From the NCBI GenBank assembly GCA_004297765.1, contig SCTZ01000141.1:1-45275 (forward strand): a stretch of DNA of 45,275 nt. The letters run 5' to 3'. Below are positions 35,490-45,076 of the stretch, in pieces. The notes beneath the pieces were generated by a model. The model was given only the letters and a program-made list of their open reading frames with translations, was not told the origin of the DNA and made no database searches. The translations under genes and the position numbers were made by a program. How positions within the stretch are numbered: position 1 is the first letter of the stretch; the number at the start of each line of letters is the position of its first letter. Source of the DNA: Chloroflexota bacterium (GTDB taxonomy: Bacteria > Chloroflexota > Dehalococcoidia > FW602-bin16).

Positions 35490-37364
35490 TTACGAAAACC
35501 TTACCCACAAATCGATCACGCCCGCATTGGACACAGAATGGACCTCGTAGCCTTCCAGGCGAGCTTCGTTTTCCCAGATCCGGCGCATGGCGGCGTTCCC
35601 AACCAGTACGGACGCGCGCAGTCCGGCGATTCCTTGCTGGCGGGCCAGGCGCACCAGCTCGTGGTGCAGATAGGTGCCGATGCCACGTCGCTGGTAGGCG
35701 TCTGCCACGGAGAGGGCCAGCTCGGCCACGTTCTCGTTGATGTTGAGGACCCACTGGGCCGAGGCGACGATGACCTCGTTCTCGTCCTTGCCAACCGTGG
35801 CCACCATGCCGAAGGTCTCATGGTAGTCCACTGAGACCATCTGCTGGGCCAACTCGTGCGGAAACGTGCTGCGGGCCTGGAAGAAGCGCTGGTAGATGCT
35901 GCGCTCCGAGAGATGATACAGGTACTCTTGCATCAGCCGCTCGTCACTGGGCTTCACCGGCCGAACAAAGAGCTCCAGGTCGTTTAGCCTGTACGTATGC
36001 TCGATCTCGACGGGATAGACCGCCTTTTCTGGCAGCACCTGGTCGGCAAAGAGGTACTTCTGCTCCTTGGCCGCCGCCAGCAGCTCCTCGCGAAATTTGG
36101 GATGGGCTATGGAGATCAGGCTCAGCGCCCGCTCTCGCAGGCTTTTGCCCTGGAGGTAGACGACTCCGTACTCCGTGGCCACGTAGTGAACGTCGCCGCG
36201 GGTGGTGACCACGCCCGCACCCTCACTGAGGTGCGGAACGATGCGCGAGACGGCGCCGCTCTCGGCCGTGGAAGGGAGGGCGATGATCGGCTTGCCGCCA
36301 GAGGCCATGGCCGCACCCCGGATGAAGTCGGCCTGCCCGCCGATGCCGCTATAGATCCGGTAGCCCAGTGAGTCCGCGCATACCTGGCCAGTGATGTCTA
36401 CCTCTAGCGCTGTGTTGATGGCGACCATCTTGTCGTTGCGCGCGATATTGAGTGGGGAGGATGTGTAATCCGTCGGGTGGAACTCGAAGATAGGGTTGCC
36501 GTCGATGTAGTCGTACAGCCGGCGCGTTCCGATGCAGAAGGCTGCCACCACCTTGCCCGGATGGAAGCTCTTACGTTTGTTGTTGACTACGCCGGTCTCG
36601 ATCAGATCGATCAGCCCGTCGCTGAACATCTCGGTGTGGATGCCCAGGTCGCGCTTGTCGAAGAGGTAGTGGAGCACCGCGTTGGGGATGGTGCCCACGC
36701 CGATCTGCAGAGTCGATCCGTTCTCTATCAGCCGGGAGATATGGCGCGCGATGGCCTTGGCCACCTCATCGGCCTGCGGTGGAGGGACCTCCAGTAGTTC
36801 TTCTTCCCACTCTACGATGGCGTCGAACTCGGTGACGTGGACGAAGCTGTTGCCCAGTGTGCGCGGCATGCGCGGGTTTACCTGCGCGATCACGAGATCC
36901 GCCGCCGCGACGGCCGCGTGGTGGGCCTCGACCGAGACGCCGAAGGAGCAGTAGCCGAAGCGATCGGGGGGAGAGACCTGGACCAGGGCCACGTCGATGG
37001 GCATGCGGCCGCTGCGTAGTAGGACGGGGATCTGAGAGAGAAAGATCGGCGTGTAATCGGCGGTCCCCTCATATACCGCTTGGCGCACTCCGGCGCCCAC
37101 GAAGAAAGCGTTGTGGCGAAAGTTACGATCGAACTGCCGGGCCGCGTGGGGCGCAGCGCCGACGGTGAGCATGTGGACGATCTCCACGTCCGTTAGCCGA
37201 TGTCCTCCCTTAGCCATCGTGACCAGCGTGTCCAACAGGTGCTGCGGCTCGGCGCAGCCCGAGCCCAGGAAGACGCGGCTGCCGCTGCGTATCTGGGACA
37301 GCGCCGCGCGAGCGGTAATCTTATGGTCCCGGTACCATTTCTCGTGATCCTGTAGTCCCAGCAT
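35490..37364 (-). CDS. Acetyl-CoA hydrolase/transferase fused to a C-terminal GNAT acetyltransferase domain
   Basis: 624-aa two-domain protein. Residues ~10-455 are a class I CoA-transferase of the acetyl-CoA hydrolase/4-hydroxybutyrate CoA-transferase type. They include S-G-C-A-E-P, the glutamate E245 in H-T-E-M-F-S-D-G, and S-G-I-G-G-Q-A-D-F. Residues ~465-624 are a GNAT domain (R-P-V-K-P-S-D-E-R-L-M, and the acetyl-CoA loop Q-R-R-G-I-G-T at 558-564). It is directly downstream of acs (120 bp), suggesting a role in acetate/acetyl-CoA balance. The GNAT part may acetylate Acs (see findings). The substrate of the CoA-transferase domain is not determined. Confidence 0.9.
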   Translation of the reverse strand: MLGLQDHEKWYRDHKITARAALSQIRSGSRVFLGSGCAEPQHLLDTLVTMAKGGHRLTDVEIVHMLTVGAAPHAARQFDRNFRHNAFFVGAGVRQAVYEGTADYTPIFLSQIPVLLRSGRMPIDVALVQVSPPDRFGYCSFGVSVEAHHAAVAAADLVIAQVNPRMPRTLGNSFVHVTEFDAIVEWEEELLEVPPPQADEVAKAIARHISRLIENGSTLQIGVGTIPNAVLHYLFDKRDLGIHTEMFSDGLIDLIETGVVNNKRKSFHPGKVVAAFCIGTRRLYDYIDGNPIFEFHPTDYTSSPLNIARNDKMVAINTALEVDITGQVCADSLGYRIYSGIGGQADFIRGAAMASGGKPIIALPSTAESGAVSRIVPHLSEGAGVVTTRGDVHYVATEYGVVYLQGKSLRERALSLISIAHPKFREELLAAAKEQKYLFADQVLPEKAVYPVEIEHTYRLNDLELFVRPVKPSDERLMQEYLYHLSERSIYQRFFQARSTFPHELAQQMVSVDYHETFGMVATVGKDENEVIVASAQWVLNINENVAELALSVADAYQRRGIGTYLHHELVRLARQQGIAGLRASVLVGNAAMRRIWENEARLEGYEVHSVSNAGVIDLWVRFS

Positions 37365-39670: not shown

Positions 39671-40087
39671 TTGGCATATACAAGCACACGTACAGTTCTG
39701 GTCGTCGACGACGATAGAGACACAATTATCCTTCTCTCGTTCGTGCTGGAGGAAGAAGGCTTCACGGTGTTAACGGCCGAGGATGGCTTATCCGCCTTAC
39801 ACGCCCTGGAGGACGAGCAGCCCGGGCTCATCCTGTTGGACTTGCACATGCCAGGTATGAATGGCTGGGAATTGGCCGGGGAAATCCGCCGACTGTACGG
39901 CCGTCAGTTGCCCATCGTGGTTATGACAGGCGGCGATCTCACGAGTCCCACTCCTGATAGGCCGGCGGATGGGTACCTTCCCAAGCCCTTCGACATCGAC
40001 AACCTGGTTGCCACGGTGCTGCGCTATGGACGCTTCGCTCCGTCGGACGCGGATGGTACGCAGACGCAACCATCCTCGCTAGGATGA
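39671..40087 (+). CDS. Stand-alone response regulator receiver domain
   Basis: 138-aa CheY-like protein with no output domain. Acidic pocket D13-D14, phosphorylatable D57 (I-L-L-D-L-H-M-P-G-M-N-G), T86 (V-V-M-T-G-G) and K105 (L-P-K-P-F) are all in place. TTG at 39671 has GGAGG eight bases ahead; no better start was seen. It is followed by a four-base gap and the predicted selenoprotein, so they are almost certainly cotranscribed. No histidine kinase is nearby. Confidence 0.88.
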   Translation: MAYTSTRTVLVVDDDRDTIILLSFVLEEEGFTVLTAEDGLSALHALEDEQPGLILLDLHMPGMNGWELAGEIRRLYGRQLPIVVMTGGDLTSPTPDRPADGYLPKPFDIDNLVATVLRYGRFAPSDADGTQTQPSSLG

Positions 40088-40091
40088 CGCT

Positions 40092-40481
40092 ATGCCGTCG
40101 GATCGCCCCCTCTTGCTCATCTTCGATGGCTGGTGAGGCTTCTGAACACTAGCTGTCCAGTGGCTTGCTGCTCTGGATGCGCATGGCCGCGTGACGGCCG
40201 TTCCATTTCAGAGGCCCGGACTGCCGGAGTCGGTGGGGCTGAGCCCCGTCCAGTGCGCGCAGGCAGTGTGGGCCGTTGGGTCGGATGGTACCAGCCACCG
40301 AGGGGCCGCGGCCATTCTCGCGGCGCTATCACAGGCCATGGGGGCTCCCAGCCTCATGCTATTGTACACCCTGCCCGGCCTACGCCAGACATTCGATGTA
40401 GCATATGCCCTGATCGCTCGCGCCCGTGGTCGATTGCCTGGCACTATCCCCTACTGCAAAACCCATCGAGATCAATGTTGA
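40092..40481 (+). CDS. Predicted selenoprotein: DCC-family (DUF393) thiol-disulfide oxidoreductase with U-x-x-U active site
   Basis: 129 residues if both in-frame UGA codons (40134-40136 and 40143-40145) are read as selenocysteine. The protein begins M-P-S-D-R-P-L-L-L-I-F-D-G-W-U15-G-F-U18-T-L-A-V. DCC-family proteins have D-x-x-C-x-x-C here, so both UGAs replace catalytic cysteines. The rest is intact and DCC-like: G-R-V-T-A-V-P-F-Q, the D-G-T-S-H-R-G-A-A-A-I middle, I-A-R-A-R-G-R-L-P-G and P-Y-C at the end. Cysteines 55, 122 and 129 remain. AGGA is seven bases ahead of the ATG, which is four bases after the response regulator stop. A SECIS-like hairpin lies at 40152-40180. selD is ~4 kb away. 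A pseudogene is the alternative, but two mutations only at the catalytic cysteines would be a strong coincidence. Confidence 0.85.
40152..40180 (+). promoter_or_regulatory. Candidate bacterial SECIS element of the DCC selenoprotein
   Basis: GC, a bulged U154, then GTCCAG (155-160) pair with CTGGAT and GC (173-180), closing a 12-base loop (161-172) whose second and third bases are G. The loop begins 16 bases after the second UGA and 25 after the first. This fits the published bacterial rule as I recall it (short stem, G among the first loop bases, loop about 16-37 bases from UGA). One hairpin may serve both codons. Confidence 0.6.
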
Positions 40482-44035: not shown

Positions 44036-45076
44036 CTATGCGACCACCTCCACCCCAGAGCCGACCACGACCTCGCCTACGACCCAGCAGGGTTGCTCGC
44101 GGTCGCGGCAAAGCTGGATGAACCGATCCACCTTGTCCGGATGTAGTGCAATTAGCAGTCCACCTGACGTCTGGGGATCGAACAGGATCTCGTGTAGCTG
44201 CGTGGGTACCGCGGGGTCAAGACGCAGCCGAGGTTGCACGAACCTCTTGTTGCGCACTGCGCCGCCTGGCACCAGATCGTCGGCCGCGTAGTCCAGCGCT
44301 CCTGGCAGCAGGGGCAGCTCCGATGCCCAGAAGCGGAGCGATACATCGCTGGCCTCCGCCATCTCGCCGGCGTGGCCCAGAAGTCCGAATCCCGTAACGT
44401 CGGTGCAGGCGGAGATCCCTACCTCTTGCGCCAGCTCGCTGGCGACCTTGTTCAAGCGCAGCATGGTGTTCACGGCTACCTCGATGTGCTCCGGGAGTGC
44501 CACACCAGCTTTGAGCGCGGTCGTCACCAGTCCCGAGCCCAACGGCTTGGTCAGTATTAGTCGATCGCCTGGCCTTCCCCCGGCTTTCGTGAGAATCTTG
44601 TCCGGGTGGATGATTCCGGTGACGGCCAAGCCGTATTTCGGCTCGGGGTCGGTGACAGTGTGACCGCCCGCTATCACAGCCCCGGCCTCCGCTACCTTGT
44701 CCGCTCCACCCTGGAAGATGGCTGTGAGACCTTCCAAGGGAAGTCCGGAGGGATAGGCCGCGATATTTAGAGCCATAAGGACTGTGCCACCCATAGCGTA
44801 GACGTCGCTGAGCGAATTGGCGGCGGCAATGGCGCCATACGTGTACGGATCGTCTACCACAGGAGGGAAGAAATCTACTGTGTGGATGATCGCCTGGGTC
44901 GCGTTGATACGATAGATGGCCGCATCATCTCCCGGTCCCAGTCCCACCAGGAGATCGGGATGGCGAAAAGCGGCCAGAGGCCGCAGCACCGCTTGCAGGT
45001 CCGCCGGACCCATTTTTGCCGCTCAGCCGGCGCAGGAGGCAAGCGAGGTTAGACGTATCTTCTCGCGCTGATCCAT
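44036..45076 (-). CDS. selD: Selenide, water dikinase, itself selenocysteine-containing
   Basis: 346-aa enzyme making selenophosphate from selenide and ATP, the selenium donor for Sec-tRNA. The start is ATG 45076 (GAGGAAG upstream). The frame reads T-S-L-A-S-C15-A-G-U18-A-A-K, with an in-frame TGA at 45023-45025. This is the family's active-site position (normally Cys or Sec, followed by a catalytic Lys). Downstream are G-D-D-A-A-I-Y, A-A-N-S-L-S-D-V-Y-A-M-G-G and L-F-D-P-Q-T-S-G-G-L-L. A conventional caller would start at ATG 45013 and lose the active site. A hairpin after the UGA matches a SECIS. Confidence 0.95.
44997..45011 (-). promoter_or_regulatory. Bacterial SECIS element of selD
   Basis: On the minus strand GGGTCC pairs with GGACCT (six pairs, one G-T wobble) around a three-base loop GGC. 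The loop begins 18 bases after the UGA. Short stem, G at the first loop positions and this distance fit bacterial SECIS elements closely. Confidence 0.85.

Follow-up and report, generated by a model that had tools for sequence, protein, structure and literature searches.

The analysed window, a 45,275-nucleotide stretch of contig SCTZ01000141.1 from a Chloroflexota bacterium, carries a gene that is predicted to encode a DCC-family oxidoreductase with selenocysteine (Sec) at both active-site positions, a reading given a probability of about 0.9. The two in-frame UGA codons of this gene fall exactly on the two cysteines of the D-x-x-C-x-x-C motif, and they do so at 39 further loci as well; both active-site residues are therefore predicted to be Sec, and the product is very likely an enzyme that holds two selenium atoms. 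The gene belongs to a widespread family in which all four motif states, with Cys or Sec at either position, are found, and it is predicted to be a new selenoprotein form of a known protein family.

Two UGA codons in a DCC reading frame

Read with TGA as U, the frame that opens at ATG 40092 (Table 1) begins MPSDRPLLLIFDGWUGFUTLAVQW and ends RDQC, with two internal stops, both TGA, and no others. When C is written for U, the product matches the PF04134 profile at 59.6 bits (E 8.5e-16, cut-off 27.8), the match covering residues 9-117 of the product and positions 1-112 of the 113 in the profile. The active-site columns are D-G-W-U-G-F-U, which is the D-x-x-C-x-x-C motif if Sec is counted as the equivalent of Cys. 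The first-pass annotation, made from the letters alone, had placed the two TGA codons on the motif cysteines and described the remainder of the frame as open and DCC-like, and translation and profile alignment bear this out. The gene is the only DCC match found in the assembly, thus no Cys copy was found beside it.

Table 1. Features of the window that bear on the predicted selenoprotein gene.
Feature	Position	Strand	Remarks
Single-domain response regulator (PF00072)	39671..40087	+	ends 4 nt before the DCC start
DCC-family (PF04134) frame, predicted U-x-x-U selenoprotein	40092..40481	+	129 residues; stop TGA 40479-40481
UGA1, codon 15	40134..40136	+	first (N-terminal) Cys column of D-x-x-C-x-x-C
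UGA2, codon 18	40143..40145	+	second Cys column of D-x-x-C-x-x-C
Predicted SECIS-like hairpin	40149..40186	+	loop 40163-40170 (GCUUGCUG); borderline energy
Shorter frame from GTG, 3' of both UGAs	40191..40481	+	96 aa; database protein P0002
selD (AIR-synthase type)	44036..45076	-	in-frame UGA 45023-45025; hairpin loop 17 nt after UGA

The response regulator just upstream is a possible operon partner of the DCC gene. None was present among the 10 adjacent frames scanned at the other loci, and the neighbours in the window belong to none of the neighbour groups common to at least three loci. Such groups are nearly confined to a single soil clade, and the largest of them covers 9 of 35 loci. A conserved redox partner gene was considered and rejected, as none recurs among the neighbour groups. 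In a clade of soil Chloroflexota, related frames lie directly behind the U-x-x-U DCC genes (L048, L059, L066, L083, L088, L097, L117, L138 and L141), and the one in L117 matches TMEM164. Elsewhere in the window, an acetyl-CoA hydrolase/transferase fused to a C-terminal GNAT acetyltransferase domain is encoded on the minus strand (35490-37364).

Recurrence of the motif states and selection on the frame

The read-through protein was searched against 100 genomes of the same class, its own included. A homologue was found in eight, with two in-frame TGA codons in its own genome and three others and none in the remaining four. The three additional U-x-x-U motifs are D-G-W-U-G-F-U (L020), D-G-W-U-G-V-U (L024) and D-G-G-U-G-F-U (L025). 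The nearest Cys form in this set, L019 (D-G-R-C-G-F-C), is 52-54% identical to the window protein, and the Sec form L139 is 55% identical to it. The Cys forms align residue for residue with the Sec forms, and one genus holds both a U-x-x-U gene (L025) and a C-x-x-C gene (L022).

A scan of genome contigs for the pattern F-D-G-x-U-G-[F/V]-U yielded 97 stretches, 30 of which continue as a DCC frame with E<1e-20; with L103, where the DCC frame is ended by the end of the contig (E 9.4e-12), the total is 31. The other 66 serve as a control, having no DCC frame beyond the demanded motif (best E 2.4e-6). Conservation of the motif letters in the 31 loci is no evidence, since the pattern demanded them; the evidence is the DCC frame that lies behind. 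Among the eight U-x-x-U loci that come from outside the pattern scan, all keep D-G before UGA1 and seven have G after it. A search of 400 genomes of the phylum gave a match at E<=1e-12 in 122, from which 20 stretches were translated, adding five U-x-x-U loci (L185, L189, L190, L200 and L201) and bringing the U-x-x-C and C-x-x-U forms to light.

With duplicate loci left out of the counts (L172-L176, L178, L186 and L199), there are 40 U-x-x-U loci, the window included, five U-x-x-C loci (L170, L171, L177, L179 and L208) and eight C-x-x-U loci (L202, L203, L205 and L206, plus L213-L216 from the class of the window), among C-x-x-C relatives from which many further Cys matches, such as the weakly matching L159-L169, were omitted. 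Relatives thus show C-x-x-C, U-x-x-C, C-x-x-U and U-x-x-U at exactly the columns of the two window UGAs, and these columns are the DCC active site, contrary to the refuting case, named in the first-pass annotation, of orthologs in which the region is none. Chance is excluded, because 40 loci have a TGA at each of these two motif positions; from the window alone, random decay had been called unlikely to strike both catalytic cysteines and nothing else. The 30 assigned U-x-x-U loci, which are 30 of the 31 found by pattern, are from Chloroflexota (17), Actinomycetota (5), Dormibacterota (4), Thermomicrobiota (3) and Planctomycetota (1).

The count of TGA codons was rejected as proof of Sec on its own. 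In L150, L151, L153, L154 and L209-L212, both motif positions are Cys and a single TGA lies near the C-terminus, where it is probably the normal stop.

A tree was made of 88 rows (39 U-x-x-U, 36 C-x-x-C, 8 C-x-x-U and 5 U-x-x-C; L103 left out) with the two trait columns removed. Parsimony on this quick tree of few columns requires 15 state changes, and as few were reached in none of 200 shuffles. The well-supported branches force only at least three (U-x-x-U) or at least four (C-x-x-C) changes. On this tree, Sec and Cys were exchanged repeatedly in the DCC family.

Selection was assessed in 57 pairs of Sec forms more than 70% identical; sequences recur between the pairs, which are therefore not independent. 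The window gene has no relative at that level of identity and contributes to no pair. After UGA2, pN is smaller than pS in 56 of the 57 pairs (dN/dS 0.14-0.47), the exception being L214/L215, a pair at 95% identity that differs at few sites. Over the six codons that precede the motif, a stretch left free by the search pattern, pN is again smaller than pS in 50 of the 57. Such a pattern indicates purifying selection on the frame that follows the UGAs. The family therefore has an in-frame UGA, coding conservation on both sides of it and Cys homologues aligned at it, which are the marks of a selenoprotein gene.

The hairpin and the decoding machinery

A bacterial SECIS has been described as a hairpin with a loop of 3-9 nt, a stem of 4-16 bp and G in the first two loop positions, lying 16-37 nt from the UGA and having an energy of -7.5 kcal/mol or lower (PMC13188914). 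The window has a hairpin that complies with these rules, barely, at -7.6 kcal/mol. In one near-optimal fold the start of its loop, GCUUGCUG, is 17 nt downstream of UGA2 and 26 nt downstream of UGA1, and in the best fold these distances are 19 and 28 nt. A hairpin had been claimed at a fitting distance after both UGAs. It exists at that distance; it is weak in the window itself, with z against synonymous recodings of -1.45 under pooled codon usage and -0.22 under gene-weighted usage, and it fails a stricter test for an unbroken stem, having a stem of 3 followed by a bulge. The hairpin of the window is thus a borderline one, and it is the family that carries the case.

The test against the published rules admitted folds up to 3 kcal/mol above the best, with up to two unpaired bases per stem step and no upper limit on the stem. 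This test, the gene-weighted folding and the unbroken-stem test used 78 rows with DNA (26 of them C-x-x-C; L103 left out), and the pooled-usage folding included L103. Counted from UGA2, the rules hold in 38 of 39 U-x-x-U and 8 of 8 C-x-x-U forms, and from UGA1 in 38 of 39 U-x-x-U and 5 of 5 U-x-x-C forms, so that 51 of 52 Sec forms comply in all, compared with 12 of 26 among the C-x-x-C controls. Shifted segments of the Sec forms pass in 13, 28, 30, 30 and 20 of 52 cases; the rules alone are thus permissive, and it is the contrast between Sec and Cys forms that counts.

This contrast is also seen in folding. In the 45 nt from UGA2, the mean z under pooled codon usage is -2.8 for 35 Sec forms and -0.27 for 10 Cys forms. 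Under gene-weighted usage it is -1.15 for U-x-x-U (39), -1.10 for U-x-x-C (5), -1.41 for C-x-x-U (8) and -0.30 for C-x-x-C (26), with a Mann-Whitney p of 0.0014 for Sec against Cys when rows are treated as independent; three other segments give no difference by the same measure (p 0.24-0.85). Elsewhere in the Sec forms, mean z stays between -0.12 and +0.17 across seven segments. The Cys forms reach -0.71 and -0.77 in two segments away from this place (n 9 and 10), and the five U-x-x-C forms reach -0.96 at 234-279 (gene-weighted usage). An unbroken stem of at least four pairs, with the loop at the expected place and a probability above 0.5, is present in 36 of 52 Sec forms and 8 of 26 C-x-x-C forms, and in 3, 9, 11 and 11 of 52 shifted controls. 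RNAalifold found no consensus hairpin at this place on ungapped columns, apparently because the stems differ in register between clades, and per-sequence tests were used for this reason. Compensatory changes are few (2 of 8, 0 of 11 and 4 of 12 pairs in three groups).

In seven of the eight C-x-x-U forms the distance from the sole UGA to the start of the loop is 17 nt, and in the other it is 18 nt. For the U-x-x-C forms it is 27 nt in three of five, which is the place of the loop in related U-x-x-U genes, and otherwise 17 or 33 nt. The place of the hairpin thus tends to be the same whether the first or the second position is Sec. Two separate C-x-x-U groups (L202, L203, L205 and L206; L213-L216) share an almost identical core of the hairpin, CGCUGGGU(N)CAGCG, at 17-18 nt from the UGA.

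The genome has the genes needed for decoding. That selD, with a Sec codon of its own, is present had been noted before and is right: the gene is on the same contig, separated from the DCC gene by 3.6 kb that hold a GH18 gene and the genes of two LysM-domain proteins. The stretch SCAGUAAK is presumably its active site, from which it was named. On other contigs of the assembly, selA (524.3 bits), selB (354.6 bits) and tRNA-Sec (70.4 bits) were found, so that selA, selB, selC and selD all occur in an assembly of 256 contigs with 8.95% estimated contamination. An absence of selA, selB or selC, given in the first-pass annotation as a ground for refutation, is thereby contradicted. Co-occurrence of selA, although expected with Sec forms, was rejected as a discriminator. 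It is present in 4 of 4 Sec-form genomes of the same-class set and in 2 of 4 with a DCC frame free of active-site TGA. In the phylum-search set, for which 59 of the 122 matching genomes were used and those of L208 and L213-L216 left out, the figures are 19 of 21 and 33 of 38, about half of these 38 being classed as Cys-form solely by the absence of a stop inside the DCC frame. The sums are 23 of 25 and 35 of 42. The Sec-form genomes without selA are G477 (95% complete) and G680 (77%).

It might be asked whether both UGAs are read. One could be decoded as Sec and the other suppressed or terminating, so that selenium would switch the gene from a short product to a full one. Decoding of two UGAs is as a rule inefficient, possible starts are found just after UGA2 in one clade, and a single Sec seems to be enough in the U-x-x-C and C-x-x-U relatives. 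However, both UGAs are kept on the same codons in all 40 loci, which is unexpected for a mere stop, and in 38 of 39 the spacing of the hairpin fits both by the published range of 16-37 nt. Such a switch is considered very unlikely.

Fold, database records and relation to known selenoproteins

An AlphaFold2 model with C for U, built on an alignment of 34 rows, has a pLDDT of 94.7. It places a strand at residues 6-10 before the motif, with the first motif position (14) directly before a helix at 15-27 and the second (17) in the first turn of this helix. Structure matches are weak, and those listed are mostly thioredoxin, glutaredoxin and GST; a search by sequence found no relative among solved structures (best E 0.21). 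In the predicted working of the gene, UGA1 and UGA2 would be read in turn by SelB carrying Sec-tRNA, helped by one hairpin just downstream. The protein would have a thioredoxin-like fold, in which the first Sec, where helix 1 begins, would be the attacking selenolate and the second its resolving partner, the enzyme cycling between a diselenide and two selenols; these roles are derived from the established chemistry of the thioredoxin fold. Sec insertion, the sharing of a single SECIS, the chemistry and the substrate are all at the level of prediction.

The database entries have a different appearance. A profile search of proteins gave 895 matches, and among the best 120 (P0005-P0124) the D-x-x-C-x-x-C motif is found in 32 and absent in 88. 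In 85 of these 88 the start lies past the second motif position, and in the other three (P0079, P0084 and P0107) it is one residue before a Cys at that position, as would a U-x-x-C gene called inside its motif. The entry for the window locus, P0002, is likewise cut short. Taken at face value, such entries favour true stops at the UGAs and a functional product that starts after UGA2, a short DCC remnant lacking the active site. This is judged highly improbable. The stretch before the motif evolves as coding sequence, as is evident from its six unconstrained codons, and the D-G before UGA1 is retained at every U-x-x-U locus from outside the pattern scan. An ATG right behind UGA2 (MARW) is common in one soil clade but absent in the window, where the next start is GTG 40191. 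The remnant would also miss strand 1 and the catalytic loop of the model. The 88 entries without the motif among the best 120 may instead be cut-short Sec genes, and the databases seem to hold the U-x-x-U DCC family mostly in this form.

Two further explanations have next to no probability. The locus is known from assembled sequence alone, so a pseudogene or sequencing error might be suspected, but the same two codons recur in 40 loci, synonymous change predominates in all but one of the Sec-form pairs (which do not include the window) and the frame has no other stop. Nor is UGA plausibly read as Trp or Gly under code 4 or 25, as TGA is the stop codon of 5 out of 23 genes examined in the window and of the DCC frame itself, tRNA-Sec, selA and selB are present in the assembly, and the UGAs stand on Cys columns rather than on Trp or Gly.

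Decoding of both UGAs as Sec is thus the preferred reading of the window gene. More broadly, DCC is probably a new and widespread selenoprotein family with every arrangement of Sec, in whose U-x-x-U members one hairpin would drive two insertions 9 nt apart and yield an obligate diselenide/diselenol oxidoreductase. If true, this adds a selenoprotein family with mostly two Sec among the loci found. The lineages concerned are the soil Chloroflexota/Dormibacterota, the Thermomicrobiales, Rubrobacter and Brocadia, where the genes now appear to be annotated as truncated DCC proteins. With four motif states occurring in nature, it is possible to ask what each selenium gives to a thioredoxin-type active site. 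The family also bears on whether one bacterial SECIS serves two UGAs and on the spacing tolerated by SelB: with a hairpin near one place and a sole UGA 17-18 nt before the loop in C-x-x-U forms or 27 nt in three of five U-x-x-C forms, it would be a natural experiment on SECIS spacing.

A DCC selenoprotein is not known to have been described. DCC/PF04134 is absent from Table 1 of a 2026 review (PMC13188914), which has 119 families by the review's own count, and term searches within PMC9312934 and PMC2398784 gave neither DCC nor DUF393. Searches of an open-access library by family name found no DCC selenoprotein, and NCBIfam gave no selenoprotein model for the read-through protein. The names of the listed relatives are those of DCC thiol-disulfide oxidoreductases, none being called a selenoprotein.

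The closest known system is the Cys form of DCC/DUF393 (PF04134, YuxK-like), with which the window gene shares the profile at nearly full length and the D-x-x-[C/U]-x-x-[C/U] motif, and from which it differs in having UGA for both motif cysteines. The U-x-x-U arrangement itself has precedents, since Table 1 of PMC13188914 gives it for a PF00578 Prx-like family, NF041115 and FmdB. Of these, the Prx-like thiol:disulfide oxidoreductase (PF00578) carries its pair of Sec at a spacing of three residues within a redox motif, as does the Prx-like 2 protein of the ocean metagenome (PMC13188914 and PMC2398784). In contrast to these two, the window protein matches PF04134 and no peroxiredoxin model, with no AhpC-TSA domain (PF00578) in a Pfam scan up to E 1. 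The NF041115 metal-binding protein and the FmdB-family putative regulator also have two Sec at this spacing (PMC13188914), but they are of other domains, for which the window protein has no match in the Pfam and NCBIfam scans. The SelD of the same window resembles the DCC gene in having an in-frame UGA with a loop 17 nt downstream, and differs from it in having one Sec and in belonging to a known family.
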